Shown piece by piece: positions 1 to 14,015 of a DNA stretch of 36,841 nt (the first letter of the stretch is position 1; every line of letters starts with the position of its first letter). The notes under the pieces are model-generated. The model was not told where the DNA came from and did no database searches. It was given only the letters and a program-made list of their open reading frames with translations. This DNA is from a virus. The position numbers were made by a program, and so were the translations under genes. Location: positions 1 through 36,841 of the IMG/VR virus record IMGVR_UViG_3300011114_000676. One strand, written 5' to 3'.

Positions 1-392
1 GCGCCGCCGTAGACCAGACCCCAGCGAAACAACAACGCAAGCTGCGCTTGGAAGTCGCCGATGCGCCAAGCGTCGTGAACCTTTGCGGCAAGTTCGTCGT
101 CGTCTTTCGACACGAACTGAAAGCCCGCACGAAAGCAGTCTGCGACGACGGCATCGACGACCCGGCGACCCACCCAGTCTTGCCGATGCAGCGCCGTCTG
201 GGTGGCGTAGTCGATCGGCGCGCGCTGCAGGTACTGCGTCGATTGCGTCTTATCGCGCCCGCTGATGCCTAAGCCGTTCAGCACGTTGGCCCAACCATCG
301 CTGCGCAAGATGCCGCGCGTTGGTTTGGGCGATTGCGCTGCGTCAGCGGTCAAGGTCGGGGTCGCTCGCTTCCAGAACTGCCACGCTGCCAT
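1..392 (-). CDS. Phage portal protein, DUF1073-like (N-terminal part, cut by window edge)
   Basis: The portal forms the dodecameric ring at one capsid vertex through which DNA is packaged and leaves. Only the first 130 residues are present; the 3' part lies beyond the left edge. The N-terminus (MAAWQFWKRAT) is followed by a segment ending NGLGISGRDKTQSTQY (about residues 40-55) and then LHRQDWVGRRVVDAVVADCFR. This matches the pattern of DUF1073-type portals, where an NGLG..DK segment precedes an L-R-DW-R-VD...D..R stretch. The ATG at 390-392 follows a GGCGAGG ribosome site. The large terminase ends 17 bp upstream on the same strand, the usual terminase-portal order. DUF1073 portals normally exceed 400 residues, so about 1 kb or more should follow outside the window. 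The family call rests on my reading of this N-terminus only. Confidence 0.8.
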   Translation of the reverse strand, partial: MAAWQFWKRATPTLTADAAQSPKPTRGILRSDGWANVLNGLGISGRDKTQSTQYLQRAPIDYATQTALHRQDWVGRRVVDAVVADCFRAGFQFVSKDDDELAAKVHDAWRIGDFQAQLALLFRWGLVYGG

Positions 393-409
393 CGTTCACC
401 TCGCCGACA

Positions 410-1690
410 TCATGCCGCGAACAGCGCACGCGCGCCAACACCGCGACGCAGATACTCCAAACCCTGTGATAGTGCGTCAACTTGGTCGTCGTGGGCACCG
501 CTTGGGAAAGCCAGCACTTCGTCGCGAAAGGCGCGCACCCAAGACGCTGGCGACCGGGGCAGCAGCACGCGCCCACATTCAAGCAGCGGTGTTTCTGCAA
601 ACAGGCGCACAACCTTTGACTTGCCACCGTGCGCGATCGGCAGTGTGGGCCACTTCCACGTTGGGGTTGCGCGCAGTTGCTGTAGAAGCGCGGTGCCGTT
701 GGCTGCGTCCTCGATCAGCACGACGTTGGGCTTCCACTGTTCGCACAGCGACGCCACGCGCTTCTGCAGGTCGGGGAACGTCAGCTTGACCCGCACGACC
801 TCGACGACGCAGATCGAGGTGCCTGTCTCTGCAAGCACGACCATCGCCGTCCAGTCGTTCTGCGGCTCCGTCTTGTTTGCGCAATCGACAGACACGACCA
901 CGCGGTCTATGTTGCGGCGATCGGGCAGACGCTCCCAGTAGTGCGACAGCCAGTCGGCTTTGACGATCTCGCCTTCAAGTCGTGCGTCCCAGTCGCCTTC
1001 AAGCCACGCGCGCACAAGCCATTCGGGGCCGGCAGCGCGCAGTTTGTCGATGTAGCCGGGGTCGGCAGTCGTCAACGCCACGTTGTCTGACAGGCGCGAG
1101 GGTATGAACACGCGCTGCGTGCCGTCCTCGCCGACGAACGGCTGCATCGGCTTGGCGGGCTCGATGTAGCGCCGCTTGACCCAATCGTGGCCTTTGCCGC
1201 CGGGGTTGCCTGTGGCGACCATGCGGGTCGGCACGCCAGCCGCAGAGCGCAGCGTCGCGCGCAACATATCCACGGGCACCGACGACGCCCACGTTGTCAG
1301 TTCGTCGAGGTAAATCGCGCTGTAGCTGTGGCCCTGATAGCGCGCTGCGTCGGCGTCGGTTTCGAGATACCGCAATCGCAGTGTCGCGCCGTTGGGGAAT
1401 AGCCAAGTGCGCGATTGCACAATGAAGCGCGCGCCAAGCGCAGTGAACAGCCCGAACATGCGCGCCTGTGCGCCCTCGATCTCTGGCAGGCTGCGACGGA
1501 ACCAGACGCCGCGCGCGTCTTTGCCGTAGGGTTGCTGGTGCGCGATCCAGTCGCCGATTGCGCCGTCGGTCTTGCCGCCACCGCGCGCGCCACCGAAAAA
1601 AATGTCGCCGATTGGACAGGAGATCAGCGCGGTCTGCGGGCCCGGTTGCGCCGCCCAGATCACTTTCGCGCCAGCAGGTATCTTGCTCAC
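410..1690 (-). CDS. terL: Terminase large subunit
   Basis: This is the DNA-packaging motor: an N-terminal ATPase pumps DNA through the portal and a C-terminal RNase H-like nuclease cuts concatemers. The 426-residue protein has a Walker A-type loop GGARGGGKT (33-41), a Walker B strand IYLDE (126-130) and a downstream MVATGNP (157-163). In the nuclease half, candidate metal ligands are D269 (VSVDC), E327-D328 (LIEDA) and D401/D402 with D405 (HDDQVDAL). The open frame extends about 100 codons further upstream, but that part is arginine-rich and overlaps another gene. The GTG at 1688-1690 was chosen because it overlaps the upstream stop (GTGA) and leaves about 30 residues before the P-loop. It lies between the 126-aa orphan and the portal. 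Confidence 0.93.
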   Translation of the reverse strand: MSKIPAGAKVIWAAQPGPQTALISCPIGDIFFGGARGGGKTDGAIGDWIAHQQPYGKDARGVWFRRSLPEIEGAQARMFGLFTALGARFIVQSRTWLFPNGATLRLRYLETDADAARYQGHSYSAIYLDELTTWASSVPVDMLRATLRSAAGVPTRMVATGNPGGKGHDWVKRRYIEPAKPMQPFVGEDGTQRVFIPSRLSDNVALTTADPGYIDKLRAAGPEWLVRAWLEGDWDARLEGEIVKADWLSHYWERLPDRRNIDRVVVSVDCANKTEPQNDWTAMVVLAETGTSICVVEVVRVKLTFPDLQKRVASLCEQWKPNVVLIEDAANGTALLQQLRATPTWKWPTLPIAHGGKSKVVRLFAETPLLECGRVLLPRSPASWVRAFRDEVLAFPSGAHDDQVDALSQGLEYLRRGVGARALFAA

Positions 1691-2067
1691 TCGACGTACC
1701 CTGCGATGCGCTTGGCTTCTGGCGCGACTGCGTGCAACACGCCCGGTTGCACAAAGCCAACGCGCACCTCGTTGCGGTACACCGTCGCCTTTGCGCCCCA
1801 CCCACCGATCAACACAAGCCGCACCACGCTGCCGCAGTCGTCGTCGAGAACCAGACAAACGCACCCGTCTTCGGTGTCGTCGTCTGCCGTCCAGTCGTCG
1901 CCGAACAGCCTGATTGCAGTCTGAATCACATCGCCTGTGTTGGGCTGTCTGGCGATTGTCTTGCGCGGGCGCGGGTTTATCTCGCTCCACTGCTGCTGTT
2001 GGGTTGGCTTGCGTTGCACTGCGACCTCAAATTGCAATTTCAGTGGAAACGTGCAAAAAAAGCACAT
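1687..2067 (-). CDS. Hypothetical protein, 126 aa, between the terminase subunits
   Basis: I do not recognise this family. The protein has a hydrophobic N-terminus (MCFFCTFPLKL), a Q-run near 24-27, an acidic centre (about residues 55-70, with TADDDTEDG) and a beta-rich C-terminal half with alternating valines. Its stop overlaps the terL GTG start, which supports translational coupling. The start is uncertain: ATG 2065-2067 has no clear ribosome site, and an in-frame start further in is possible. A strong nested palindrome (2116-2158) lies between this gene and the small terminase. Its position suggests a packaging or head-assembly accessory, but this is inferred from location only. Confidence 0.6.
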   Translation of the reverse strand: MCFFCTFPLKLQFEVAVQRKPTQQQQWSEINPRPRKTIARQPNTGDVIQTAIRLFGDDWTADDDTEDGCVCLVLDDDCGSVVRLVLIGGWGAKATVYRNEVRVGFVQPGVLHAVAPEAKRIAGYVE

Positions 2068-2210: not shown

Positions 2211-2684
2211 TCACGCATCGCTGTCGTCGTCACCAAGCTGCGGCGGCACGATGTCGCCTGCCTGCACCGACGCCTGCCAGTCTGCGACTGACGCTGCGCG
2301 AGCAGGCACCACGACGATCTGTGCGGCGATCTGCACTGCGCCGCCGTCACGACCGACGACCTCGACTTGGCGTCTGCCGTATTCGTCGGGGTGGCGGCGT
2401 TCGAGCAACCACGCGCCCGCCTGCCAGACACCGCTGGTTGCCGCTGTGCGGATCGACGACAGACACGAAAGAGAACCAGACGACTCTGCCGAACGACATG
2501 CGTCGGCAAATTCGGGAATTTTGGCCAACCAGTCTTGAAACGTCGAAAGGTCAACACCCACGAAAGACGCAGCGATCCGATGGGTTGCGCCGACCTGTAG
2601 CGCGCCGATGATCTTCTTGCGAACTTCGTCGGTCAGCTTCGTCGGTCTGCCGACCTTGCGACCTGTTGGGAGGCGTTTGGGCAT
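2211..2684 (-). CDS. terS: Terminase small subunit-like protein
   Basis: Small terminases bind the packaging site and hand the DNA to the large subunit. The 157-residue protein begins with a basic stretch MPKRLPTGRKVGRPTKL. A helix-turn-helix-like region follows (about residues 18-52), with ALQVGATHRIAAS then VDLSTFQDWLA, as in many phage small terminases. A central helical part carries LLERRHPDEYGRR (about 93-105), a motif often seen just before the C-terminal part in these proteins. The tail is acidic (GDDDSDA). Start ATG 2682-2684 overlaps the stop of the upstream ABC-GNAT gene (ATGA). Location two genes before terL supports the call; specificity cannot be read from sequence. Confidence 0.82.
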   Translation of the reverse strand: MPKRLPTGRKVGRPTKLTDEVRKKIIGALQVGATHRIAASFVGVDLSTFQDWLAKIPEFADACRSAESSGSLSCLSSIRTAATSGVWQAGAWLLERRHPDEYGRRQVEVVGRDGGAVQIAAQIVVVPARAASVADWQASVQAGDIVPPQLGDDDSDA

Positions 2685-3808
2685 CAGTGCAAAATCCCAA
2701 GTGCGCGCGCGTCGTCTGGGCGCGCTTCGCCGACGAATTGGAATGTCGCCGTCGATCTGTTGCAGGAATTGCGACGATGCAACCACTCCTTCCCGCGTGT
2801 TTTCGACAGACCGACGACACGCGACGGCTCGCGAACCATCGCCCAAAGCGGCGAAGCGTTGCGATAACGGATCATCGCCGGGTGTGACGTAACACTGCGA
2901 AACGGCTTGCGTGTCGCGCTGTAGCAGGCAGCGACGAACTCTGACAGTTTGTTGCCTATGCCGACGCCTTGAAAGTCTGGCAGGCAAACGGTGCGATGCC
3001 CGCGCCAACCGGGAACGTGCTGATGCGGGAACGACAACACGGCAGCGAAGGCGACCGGGCGCGATGCGATGCTGGCGACGAAGCACGCTGCGCCTTTGTG
3101 CAGATCGGTGTTCAGATAGTGATGCTGCGCGAAAGCGTGCCAGATCGACGAATCACAGCGTTGGATTTCAAGCGCAACGTCTGGGCGTCGTCGATGCGAC
3201 CTCGCGGTGAAAGTGCCTGACGGCATTTCGATTATCCAATCTGGCTGCAGCCAGTCGATGATGTCGCTGTGACAAGATACAGCGACGAAGCGTTGCCCGC
3301 GCTGGCGCACGCTGCGCGCAATTGCGTGACTGCCGATCTGTGCGACTGTGCGATCGACGACCGAAGTGAATTCGTCGATCACTGTGATTGCGCGTTGTTC
3401 CGCCAATGCGCGCGCAACGTGAACGCGAAAGCGCTGGCCTGTTGACAGCACCGCGAATGGGCGCAGCCACGACGGCGGGCTACTGAACCCGACCGACGAT
3501 AACAGCGCGATGATCTCTTTGACCGACATCGCAGCGGGGAAATCGTCAATGATCGTGCGATCTGACGACCAAGCGAACGCGCCCTCGTCGATCACTGCGT
3601 CGCCGAACAGCGCGCGAGCGACGGTTGACTTGCCTGCGCCGCTGGGGCCAACGATCAAACCGACGTTCCACGACGACGGCAGATCAACGTCAAACGACCA
3701 GCGCTCGATGCTCGCTTCTGTCGGCGGCAGATCGAACATCGACGACGCCTGCAGCACGCGAGCGGTCTTTGTGATCGGCGATTTGACTACGAGATCAACG
3801 CGCGGCAT
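2684..3808 (-). CDS. ABC-type ATPase fused to a GNAT acetyltransferase-like domain (COG2401-like)
   Basis: The 374-residue protein combines two domains. An ABC ATPase has Walker A GPSGAGKST (54-62), signature LSTGQ (121-125) and Walker B ITVIDE (141-146), then SCHSDIIDWLQPDW (178-191). A GNAT-like domain (about 220-320) carries HRTVCLPDFQGVGIG (271-285), an acetyl-CoA-loop-like stretch, and VTSHPAMIRYR. This arrangement corresponds to COG2401, described as an ABC-type ATPase fused to a predicted acetyltransferase. No membrane segments are present, so it is not a transporter. Substrate is unknown. It overlaps the ParB-like gene by 22 bp and the small terminase by 4 bp, so all three are probably co-translated. 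An acyl modification of DNA or of a DNA-bound protein is a reasonable guess, not shown. Confidence 0.85.
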   Translation of the reverse strand: MPRVDLVVKSPITKTARVLQASSMFDLPPTEASIERWSFDVDLPSSWNVGLIVGPSGAGKSTVARALFGDAVIDEGAFAWSSDRTIIDDFPAAMSVKEIIALLSSVGFSSPPSWLRPFAVLSTGQRFRVHVARALAEQRAITVIDEFTSVVDRTVAQIGSHAIARSVRQRGQRFVAVSCHSDIIDWLQPDWIIEMPSGTFTARSHRRRPDVALEIQRCDSSIWHAFAQHHYLNTDLHKGAACFVASIASRPVAFAAVLSFPHQHVPGWRGHRTVCLPDFQGVGIGNKLSEFVAACYSATRKPFRSVTSHPAMIRYRNASPLWAMVREPSRVVGLSKTRGKEWLHRRNSCNRSTATFQFVGEARPDDARALGILH

Positions 3809-4359
3809 TCAATTCCTTCGTTGATCAGCTTGTCGAGCAGCGCGACTTGCGACGCTTCGTCTTTGCAGACGCACAGAACGTCCCATGTTTCGCCGATGGG
3901 CTGTTCGTCTGGCGACGGCAAGACGACATCGCCAAGCAGTTTCTGCAATTCGCGTTCGTCGAACCCCAGATCGCCCAACAGCGAATCGTCTGCCGCCTTG
4001 AGTTCGCGCAGCACTTCAGCCAGCGCAGCATCGTCCCAAGTCGCGATCTCGCCGATGCGGTTGTCAGCGAGGGCAAGCGCGTGCGCGTCTACTGGGTCGA
4101 GATCGAGCCAGCGCACAGGCACTTGTTCCAGCTTCAAGCGCTGCGCTGCTGCGAACCGCGTGTGCCCTGCGATGATCGTGCCGTCACGCTTGTTGGCGAC
4201 GATCGGGCTGCCCCAACCGAAACGCCTGATTGACTTGGCTACGTCTGCGATCGCGCTGGCGTTCTGTCGCGGGTTCTGCGCCCACGGGGTCAGGTCTGCG
4301 ACAGCGACCCAGACTGCGGCGGGGTCGGTCTGCGTCGTCGTCGGTGCGGGTGTCTCCAT
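3787..4359 (-). CDS. ParB-like domain protein
   Basis: The 190-residue protein has an N-terminal ParB/Srx-fold domain: VADLTPWAQNPRQN (19-32), IADVAKSIRRFGW (37-49), PIVANK, then the phosphate-binding-type motif GHTRFAAAQRL (65-75) and LALADNR (95-101). Phage ParB-like proteins of this sort often accompany DNA-modifying or nuclease-type partners; some members bind or hydrolyse nucleotides. The C-terminal half is acidic with no recognised domain. It is the first gene of the leftward unit. ATG 4357-4359 was chosen because the frame upstream lacks the domain and a promoter-like pair ends just before it, which would make the mRNA nearly leaderless. The coding start contains GGAGACACCC, the leader motif of the rightward genes. 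Confidence 0.85.
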   Translation of the reverse strand: METPAPTTTQTDPAAVWVAVADLTPWAQNPRQNASAIADVAKSIRRFGWGSPIVANKRDGTIIAGHTRFAAAQRLKLEQVPVRWLDLDPVDAHALALADNRIGEIATWDDAALAEVLRELKAADDSLLGDLGFDERELQKLLGDVVLPSPDEQPIGETWDVLCVCKDEASQVALLDKLINEGIECRALIS

Positions 4360-12542: not shown

Positions 12543-12907
12543 CCCGCGACCTGATGCACGAACTAGCGGCGAGTGAACCTGTGGTCGTTGACCCGTTGAC
12601 GCTCGACCCGTGGAAGCTGCGGGTGGCGCGCACGCTGGCGGGGTTGTCGCAGACGCAGCTTGCGCAGCGCGCAGGCTACAAGGGCGGCAACGCCCGTATC
12701 TGCCTGATTGAGGGCTATCGCGACAAGAAGTCGCGCGAGGCCAAGATGACTGCGCGTCTGGCTGCAGTGCTTGGCGTTGACCCGCTCGATCTGATGTCCA
12801 CCGCCGACGACCAGCTTGACGGCTGGGCACTGTTCAGCGACTGGAAGCGCGACGGCAAACCGCCGCTGCGCGAATGGGTGCGCAGGAACTTGGCGCAGAC
12901 GCGCTAA
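12539..12907 (+). CDS. XRE-family helix-turn-helix regulator
   Basis: The 122-residue protein has a Cro/C1-type helix-turn-helix at about residues 20-82: WKLRVARTLAGLSQTQLAQRAGYKGGNARICLIEGY, then LAAVLGVDPLDLM. The helix-turn-helix contains a 4-residue insertion (YKGGNA) before the recognition helix. The C-terminal 40 residues (DGWALFSDWKRDGKPPLREWVRRNL) are basic and unassigned. It starts at GTG 12539 overlapping the recT stop. It is more likely a switch of early transcription than a lysogeny repressor, since no integrase or divergent cro-type gene accompanies it. Confidence 0.82.
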   Translation: MTRDLMHELAASEPVVVDPLTLDPWKLRVARTLAGLSQTQLAQRAGYKGGNARICLIEGYRDKKSREAKMTARLAAVLGVDPLDLMSTADDQLDGWALFSDWKRDGKPPLREWVRRNLAQTR

Positions 12908-12915
12908 CGATCGAG

Positions 12916-12932
12916 GTCGGCAAGGTGCCGAC
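12916..12932 (+). repeat. Short stem-loop after the XRE gene
   Basis: GTCGGCA (12916-12922) and TGCCGAC (12926-12932) form a perfect 7-bp stem with loop AGG. No T-run follows, so it may slow ribosomes or RNases between cistrons, not end transcription. It lies in the 92-bp gap before the membrane peptide gene. Confidence 0.5.
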
Positions 12933-12999
12933 AGCGAACAGCAGCCGTGCGACACTCTGGGTCGAGCCCGCACGGTTGCCCGTATCACAGGAGTTTGCG

Positions 13000-13086
13000 A
13001 TGTCAGTAGATGCTCTGATCGACTTTGTGGGTGCTGTCGCGCTGTTCGCGATCGTCTGCGTGCTGGCGTTGTTGGTGTCGCCGTGA
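13000..13086 (+). CDS. Very small single-pass membrane peptide (28 aa)
   Basis: ATG 13000-13002 has a strong ACAGGAG 7 bp upstream. The peptide MSVDALIDFVGAV... continues as a clean transmembrane helix (about residues 8-26, VGAVALFAIVCVLALLV) and ends at TGA 13084-13086, overlapping the next GTG. Single-helix peptides like this occur in phages as toxins, holin partners or exclusion factors; nothing here selects one. Confidence 0.6.
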   Translation: MSVDALIDFVGAVALFAIVCVLALLVSP

Positions 13087-14015
13087 ACATCGAATTGCCC
13101 GACGAAGTGCGCGACGCGATCTGCGTCGTCAGTGTCAGCGGTGGCAAAGATAGTGCTGCCGTGATGCTGTCGTTGCTCGATCGCCGCGACGAATTGCTTG
13201 CGCGCAACTGCGAGTTGCGATTTGTGTTTGCTGACACGGGTTGGGAGAGCGCGCTGACCTATGCCCACTTGGACACGATGCGAACCCATTTAGGCATTCA
13301 GATCGATGTGGTCGGCGTCGAAGGGGGAATGCGGGGGCGCATCGCTTATCGGGCGGGGTTCCCATCGCGCATCATGCGGTGGTGTACGCAAGAGTTGAAA
13401 CTGAAACCACTGCGGGCGTATCACGAACAACTGCGAGCCGACACAGGCAAAGATACGATCAGCGTCGTCGGCGTGCGGGGTGGCGAAAGCGAAGCACGCC
13501 AGAAGATGCCCGTGTTTGCCTACGACAACGAGTGGGACGGCTTCGTCTGGCGACCGATCCACGCTTGGACAGTGACCGACGTTCTGTTGACGCATCGCAA
13601 GTTCGGGTTGCCCATGAACCCCTTGTATCAGCGCGGGCATGATCGTGTGGGGTGCTACCCGTGCATCTTTGAGAACAAAGACGGCATCGCTTTGATCGCC
13701 AAGAACGACCCCGACCGCATTGATGAGATCGCAGCGTTGGAGCAACAGACGCGCACGTTGCGGGCAGAGCGAAACGCCGAACGCACCGAAGCCAAATCTG
13801 GTGATGTGCGCTATCAGCACCCGCAGGGCTATTTCTTCCAATCGCGTGACCGCAAGTCTGGAGTGTTGCAAGACATTCACCAAGTTGTGGAATGGTCGCG
13901 CACTGCGCGGGGCGGCAAACAAATGCTGCTGTTTGACCCGGTGCCGTTGGGGGGGTGTATGCGCTGGGGTCTGTGTGAGACATCGCCGACCGACTCAAAC
14001 AAGGACGCAAAATGA
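13083..14015 (+). CDS. PAPS reductase / DndC-like ATP-pyrophosphatase family protein
   Basis: The 310-residue protein has the N-type ATP-pyrophosphatase P-loop SGGKDS (19-24), which binds and adenylates a substrate. It contains C101 (RWCTQELK), C191 and C194 (CYPCIFENK) and two late cysteines in GGCMRWGLCE, which could bind an iron-sulfur cluster or zinc. Relatives include PAPS reductases, DndC of DNA phosphorothioation and the IbrA-like phage proteins. In some prophages IbrA pairs with ParB-like IbrB, and this phage also has a ParB-like protein, although on the other strand. GTG 13083 overlaps the membrane-peptide stop (GTGA). Whether it modifies DNA, tRNA or sulfur metabolites is open. Confidence 0.82.
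   Translation: MNIELPDEVRDAICVVSVSGGKDSAAVMLSLLDRRDELLARNCELRFVFADTGWESALTYAHLDTMRTHLGIQIDVVGVEGGMRGRIAYRAGFPSRIMRWCTQELKLKPLRAYHEQLRADTGKDTISVVGVRGGESEARQKMPVFAYDNEWDGFVWRPIHAWTVTDVLLTHRKFGLPMNPLYQRGHDRVGCYPCIFENKDGIALIAKNDPDRIDEIAALEQQTRTLRAERNAERTEAKSGDVRYQHPQGYFFQSRDRKSGVLQDIHQVVEWSRTARGGKQMLLFDPVPLGGCMRWGLCETSPTDSNKDAK

Follow-up and report, generated by a model that had tools for sequence, protein, structure and literature searches.

Genes at the locus

The window, by which we mean the whole stretch of DNA that was analyzed, is a virus record of 36,841 bases (IMGVR_UViG_3300011114_000676). Four genes on its minus strand lie in the order ParB, ABC-GNAT, TerS, and TerL. The first (3787..4359, minus strand) encodes a ParB-N-domain protein of 190 amino acids, P0002, which matches PF02195 from Pfam (E = 4.4e-7) and PHROG 620 (E = 3.7e-44). 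The second (2684..3808, minus strand) encodes P0001, a fusion of an ABC ATPase and a GNAT domain (374 amino acids; PF00005 or ABC_tran, E = 7.7e-11; PHROG 11143, E = 2.3e-98). The ABC ATPase domain (3206..3700, minus strand) covers about residues 37-201 and the GNAT domain (2687..3199, minus strand) covers residues 204-374. Downstream are the small subunit of the terminase (TerS; 2211..2684, minus strand; PHROG 4102, "terminase small subunit", E = 3.4e-25) and the large subunit (TerL; about 410..1765, minus strand; PF17289 or Terminase_6C, E = 4.8e-12, and PF03237, E = 1.4e-6).

As read from the sequence, the end of the ParB gene and the start of the ABC-GNAT gene overlap by 22 nt, and the stop codon of ABC-GNAT shares one base with the start codon of TerS, in TGATG. 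Genes that are translationally coupled are arranged in this way. An earlier note on this DNA had described a ParB and ABC-GNAT pair that precedes terS, with overlaps between the two genes and with terS; the two overlaps, the profile matches, and the same pairing in 168 of 176 related loci (see below) confirm that description.

Tail genes (for a tail sheath and a tape measure protein) and genes for a DnaB-like helicase, RecT, and an exonuclease are also present in the window. Past TerL, a portal-like frame (1-410, minus strand) runs off the left end and is not continued at the right end, and we did not find a terminal repeat in the window, so the window is probably an incomplete genome. Farther away is a PAPS-reductase-like gene (12816-14012, plus strand; PHROG 424, E = 2e-50). 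Genes of this kind can belong to phage DNA-modification loci, so this may be a further modification gene.

The ParB_N domain of P0002 bears the motifs N-P-R and G-H-T-R. It is the sole domain that Pfam matches in this protein, and no HTH domain was detected. PADLOC's model for type II methyltransferases matches the N-terminal part of P0002 (E = 3e-26). ParBc proteins accompany CmoX DNA-modification genes, and the 2025 paper that describes this states that the role of small phage ParB proteins in DNA modification is unknown (PMC12783734).

Both halves of the ABC-GNAT protein look active, because their catalytic motifs are conserved and their predicted structures are confident. In an alignment of 168 loci, the ABC half has a Walker A motif (G54-S56-G57-G59-K60), a signature of the type LSxGxxFR (L121-S122-G124-F127-R128), a Walker B motif with a catalytic glutamate (D145-E146), a D-loop aspartate (D152), and a switch histidine (H180). 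All of these residues are 100% conserved except for L121 (99%) and F127 (96%). In the GNAT half, W223, F226, H230-Y231, R272, P277-D278-x-Q280-G281, P310, W322, and R351 are conserved in 98-100% of the aligned sequences, with R272 and P277-D278-x-Q280-G281, which is the CoA-binding motif A, at 99-100%. The AlphaFold2 model of the whole protein has a pLDDT of 94 and a pTM of 0.88; a model of the GNAT domain by itself (pLDDT 93) has a clear GNAT fold and matches many GNATs with Z scores of 12-13.6.

By fold, the GNAT model is nearest to solved N-acetyltransferases of proteins and small molecules, among them RimI and Naa50 (which act on proteins). The fold search with the whole protein was swamped by the ABC domains of transporters, and the search with the GNAT domain gave generic GNATs, from which the substrate cannot be read. 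The match of P0001 to Acetyltransf_7 (E = 3.7e-4 to 1.1e-4) is below Pfam's cut-off, and an NCBIfam search with the GNAT domain alone gave no match. Pfam recognized no membrane domain in P0001, whose 374 residues are filled by the ABC ATPase and GNAT domains. P0001 also matches the PADLOC model mad3, mainly across residues 106-157, a region that is common among ABC ATPases; we set this assignment aside as generic ATPase similarity.

Relatives of ABC-GNAT are encoded in at least 595 stretches of viral contigs and at least 367 stretches of genome contigs. In some of these (L002:5504-6678 and similar), the annotations are misleading: "putative ABC iron siderophore transporter" for the ABC part and "DNA modification methylase" for ParB.

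ParB and ABC-GNAT form a conserved unit

We compared 176 loci with ABC-GNAT from phage records, viral contigs, and contigs of bacterial genomes. In 168 of them, a ParB gene lies upstream on the same strand; most of the other eight are on contigs that end before the position where ParB would be. Because the pairing is this consistent, the arrangement in the window is, by its gene order, a conserved unit and not due to chance. An overlap like the window's is the commonest arrangement among the 168 loci, and a minority have a gap of several hundred bases. At two loci, ParB and ABC-GNAT form a single frame of 613 amino acids (L022, a viral contig, and L109, a Gemmataceae genome).

Some phages depart from this layout. 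SSU5-like phages have two ParBs, then an ABC ATPase, and then a separate GNAT gene (PHROG 886), with an annotated terminase 2-3 kb beyond the GNAT gene in two of them. (PHROG 886 is named as an ABC transporter subunit, and its members in Salmonella phage SSU5, L177:5877-6767, and Rhizobium phage RHph_N2_6, L179:6558-7442, are GNAT-like.) The T4-like phages PX29 and vB_VmeM-32 have ABC-GNAT without an adjacent ParB.

At seven loci (L002, L306, L226, L230, L239, L240, and L282), several of which are Streptococcus phages, the ABC and GNAT parts are in two frames that are always -1 apart and overlap by 100-106 nt (for example, L306:6576-6676). In most of these, the GNAT frame lacks an ordinary start codon ahead of the conserved part, and the overlap contains slippery-type heptamers. 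The pattern resembles programmed -1 frameshifting at these candidate slip sites, which would give both ABC alone and ABC-GNAT.

The core that is conserved across loci is just ParB and ABC-GNAT. When neighboring frames were clustered blindly, no third gene stood out beyond packaging and head genes among the clusters listed, which were dominated by out-of-frame shadows of coding sequence. In Gordonia phage Mariokart, a formyltransferase-like gene (L186:1799-2446; PF00551, E = 1.8e-8) lies between ABC-GNAT and the terminase, and it is possible that this gene is accessory to acyl chemistry.

Position before the terminase

TerL is within 3.5 kb downstream on the same strand in at least 75 of the 120 loci with enough sequence, a lower bound that was obtained with seven TerL profiles. 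The loci were picked by similarity and their counts are not independent samples; to offset this, we clustered them (62 of 104 loci at 90% identity, 36 of 68 at 62%, and 15 of 25 at 50%) and ran an upstream control, in which TerL was found in 2 of 99 loci. By these counts, the position of the ABC-GNAT cassette on the terminase side is a real property.

The earlier note took this position as coupling to packaging, with action on DNA at the packaging stage. The positional link holds up, but it is shared with other modification genes that are linked to ParB: in a set of the 80 closest relatives of a streptococcal ParB, 49 have TerL within 5 kb, and most of these lack ABC-GNAT. The position therefore belongs to ParB-type modification cassettes generally and does not by itself establish that the cassette acts during packaging.

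Exchange of enzymes behind ParB

To see what else accompanies these ParBs, we surveyed the same 80 nearest relatives of the streptococcal ParB. The partner is ABC-GNAT at 12 loci and a methyltransferase of the N6/N4 type at 33 (29 of them fused to ParB); 30 loci have something else and 5 are on contigs that are cut. The fused or adjacent methyltransferases were assigned with a profile built from two sequences and the other partners by profile matches. Mom lies behind the same ParB in L277 and L287 (PF25680, E = 2.4e-57 and 3.6e-38). Further partners among the 30 include a C5-methyltransferase, QueC, a Vut_1 transporter, TET-associated glycosyltransferases (TAGT), and radical SAM proteins. One partner family has 12 members, and the three that we tested match PHROG 887, "queuine tRNA-ribosyltransferase", of the DpdA type (E = 3e-59 to 5e-34).

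The ParBs with these different partners are similar to each other. ParBs with ABC-GNAT are up to 92.4% identical over 132 amino acids to those with methyltransferases, up to 86% identical to those with 7-deazaguanine partners, and up to 67% identical to those with Mom. In one pair of loci (L230 and L236), the DNA is 97.5% identical over 434 nt, which includes ParB and the upstream sequence, and 95.2% identical over 3,035 nt on the terminase side; between these flanks, one has ABC-GNAT and the other has a methyltransferase. On the ParB side, Streptococcus phages Javan141 and Javan128 give the same picture, with 97.2% identity over 845 nt. On a tree of ParBs, the ABC-GNAT label changes 8 times, and at least 4 of these changes are forced by well-supported branches. 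On these alignments and this tree, the pattern is what repeated partner exchange produces. All of the nearest relatives of the window's ParB are paired with ABC-GNAT, and the exchange is seen in other branches, mainly of streptococcal, rumen-type, and actinobacterial phages.

Two actinobacterial examples link related ParBs to other chemistries. In Mycobacterium phage Arbiter, ParB (gp1; 55% identical to Mariokart's ParB) is followed by Tgt, QueC, QueD, QueE, FolE, and then the terminase. Arbiter is assigned to the same species as Rosebush, whose virion DNA has about 28% of its G as dPreQ0 (PMC6884629). In Microbacterium phage CrazyRich, the genes after ParB encode a glycosyltransferase and UDP-glucose dehydrogenase. 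Behind other related ParBs are C-terminal parts or genes that we did not recognize (L224:3980-5801, in Streptococcus phage SpGS-1, and L256:4495-5508), and these may be further undescribed modification enzymes.

Proposed function and alternatives

We propose that the cassette is a ParB-assisted, ATP-dependent acyltransferase that moves an acyl group from acyl-CoA to DNA bases and protects the phage genome before packaging, and we think that this is probably correct. The proposal starts from what can be read in the genomes: the gene order with its overlaps, the conserved catalytic motifs, the unit with ParB, and the exchange with known DNA modifiers. From there we infer the substrate, the acyl chemistry, the target base, the role of ATP, and the timing. 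We take DNA to be the substrate mainly because of the repeated exchange with DNA-modification enzymes, and this exchange lends good support to the suggestion in the earlier note that acyl groups are added to DNA bases with ParB as the partner on the DNA side.

GNATs acylate amines with CoA as the donor, and the amines that DNA offers are the exocyclic ones on A, C, and G. The GNAT domain would thus use a CoA thioester to acylate one such amine on a base of the phage genome. Non-transport ABC ATPases clamp or remodel nucleic acid, and the ABC ATPase might spend ATP on opening, gripping, or moving along the DNA, which would make the base reachable. ParB would engage the DNA and perhaps choose the site, as it apparently does for other phage base-modifying enzymes; we assign it this role because it stays the same as the enzyme chemistry varies. 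The modification would protect against host restriction, and as these genes head the packaging operon, concatemers would be modified ahead of packaging. We know of no phage with this cassette in which a modified base has been measured.

GNATs most often act on proteins or small molecules, which counts against DNA as the substrate, and the earlier note offered a DNA-bound protein as another target. We found no positive support for that version. In a broader form of the idea, ABC-GNAT would acylate a terminase, a portal, a DNA-bound phage protein, or a host protein after ParB brings it to the DNA, and its position before TerS would reflect regulation of packaging. The nearest solved folds are protein N-acetyltransferases (RimI and Naa50), the cassette adjoins the terminase in 75 of 120 loci, and a phage GNAT that acetylates RNA polymerase is known (Rac; PMC7824862). 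However, fold matches of GNATs do not reveal the substrate, the seven different profiles that were needed to find the adjoining terminases are ill-suited to one fixed protein target, and elsewhere the same ParB is paired with DNA methyltransferases, Mom, DpdA, or glycosyltransferases, which have DNA as their shared substrate. We therefore consider a protein target unlikely, if still worth keeping in mind. It is a little harder to credit that ABC-GNAT is a second-step enzyme, inactive alone on ordinary DNA, which acylates a base that was already changed or which needs accessory enzymes for the acyl donor. Phage modifications are often layered, Mariokart's formyltransferase-like gene is directly after ABC-GNAT, and the window has the PAPS-reductase-like gene at 12816-14012, but the core across loci is ParB and ABC-GNAT only, and among the neighbor clusters listed, no third gene other than packaging or head genes stood out.

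We see only a slim chance that this is an offensive or anti-defense system, with ParB as a nuclease and the GNAT as an inactivator of some host factor, and with no modification of the phage's own DNA. ParB-superfamily nucleases do exist (PMC10853773), and P0001 matches mad3, but that match spans generic ATPase motifs. Also, the exchange partners are DNA modifiers and not toxins, and a late-gene slot before the terminase fits protection of the genome better than an early attack on the host. As for an ordinary ParB partition system or a part of an ABC transporter, the annotations "ParB-like partition" and "iron siderophore transporter" would suggest this, yet ParB_N is the only partition domain found in P0002, with no HTH, and no membrane domain was recognized in P0001, which adjoins ParB and TerS rather than a permease. 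What follows ParB in the window is ABC-GNAT and then the terminase; the conserved neighbor across loci is the terminase, and neither partition nor transport explains the fusion to a GNAT. We consider this explanation extremely improbable.

Returning to acylation of DNA bases, a bolder version may well hold, although we put it forward tentatively: ABC-GNAT would add the acyl group by an ATP-coupled chemistry that is distinct from Mom's, giving a base modification that has not been seen in any DNA, and small phage ParBs would serve as a general adaptor for at least six chemistries that are swapped by cassette exchange next to the terminase. As part of this reading, the six would be N-methylation, C5-methylation, Mom, 7-deazaguanine exchange, glycosylation, and ABC-GNAT.

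The ParB/ABC-GNAT cassette is widespread and is often misannotated as a transporter. If our proposal is true, then it probably makes a new DNA modification, and small phage ParBs have a general role in DNA modification. The near-identical pair that differs by ABC-GNAT versus a methyltransferase, along with several cultured phages that carry the cassette, makes the function directly testable. These cultured phages include Lactococcus P335, Gordonia phages Jace and Mariokart, Arthrobacter phage EastWest, and Leptospira biflexa phage LE4.

Comparison with known systems

In the literature that we searched, no paper on COG2401 was found. For a phage with the cassette (Leptospira phage LE4), the abstracts of published work held no usable restriction data. 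A paper on wheat-phyllosphere phages with nanopore data had no clear link to the ParB/ABC-GNAT cassette, and we set it aside.

The GNAT domain of P0001 and Mom of phage Mu (PF25680, PDB 8bv8) both belong to the GNAT superfamily and have a His-Tyr motif in the N-terminal part, and Mom also occurs behind the same type of ParB (L277 and L287). Unlike P0001, Mom has no ABC domain. The Mom profile did not match the GNAT domain of P0001 at E up to 10, while the controls (Mu Mom, L277, and L287) scored 2e-75 to 4e-38. Profile-profile comparison of the two, with shallow alignments for Mom, detected no relation. By these two comparisons, the GNAT domain is not recognizably a member of the Mom family. 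In the fold search, 8bv8 was not among the 50 matches listed for the GNAT model, which carries no weight either way. It may nevertheless work like Mom.

Phage fusions of ParB with N6/N4 methyltransferases (PHROG 498; Javan128) have a near-identical ParB domain and the same slot before the terminase; the fusion-type ParB domain is 80.6% identical to the ABC-GNAT-partnered ParB of a group B streptococcal phage. The methyltransferase is fused to ParB, whereas the window has a separate ABC-GNAT. The Rosebush-type cluster for 7-deazaguanine (ParB, DpdA, QueCDE, FolE, terminase) has ParB first, then the enzymes, and the terminase last, as in the window. Its product is proven by LC-MS and arises by base exchange through transglycosylation, not by acyl transfer.

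TmcA (tRNA(Met) cytidine acetyltransferase) combines an ATPase and a GNAT in one protein and makes N4-acetylcytidine in tRNA. Its structure (PDB 2zpa) is a Foldseek match to the GNAT domain (rank 47, E = 5e-5). TmcA differs from P0001 in having an RNA substrate and a RecD-like helicase in place of the ABC ATPase; we use it as an analogy.

The closest precedent is a prediction. One paper (PMC7824862, which cites Iyer et al. 2013, Nucleic Acids Res 41:7635) describes acyl modification of a nucleobase as predicted for a GNAT with an ABC ATPase and names Tenacibaculum phage pT24. This is the same pair of domains as in P0001, which across its residues 1-319 shares 31.7% identity with a homologue in pT24. 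The pT24 annotation splits ABC and GNAT into two genes, and we detected no neighboring ParB, whereas in the window ABC and GNAT are fused and ParB overlaps them. P0001 has the features that define the predicted system: the ABC motifs (Walker A, signature, Walker B, and switch histidine are 96-100% conserved in the 168-locus alignment), a GNAT domain with its conserved CoA motif and a fold with Z up to 13.6, and a phage DNA-modification context, by way of the partner exchange behind ParB. The idea that ABC-GNAT makes an acyl modification was thus already published, and by its sequence features the window's cassette is a member of the predicted system, now with stronger genomic support. As far as the literature that we searched shows, the conserved unit with ParB, the fused forms, the statistics on the terminase, and the exchange with proven modifiers are new.
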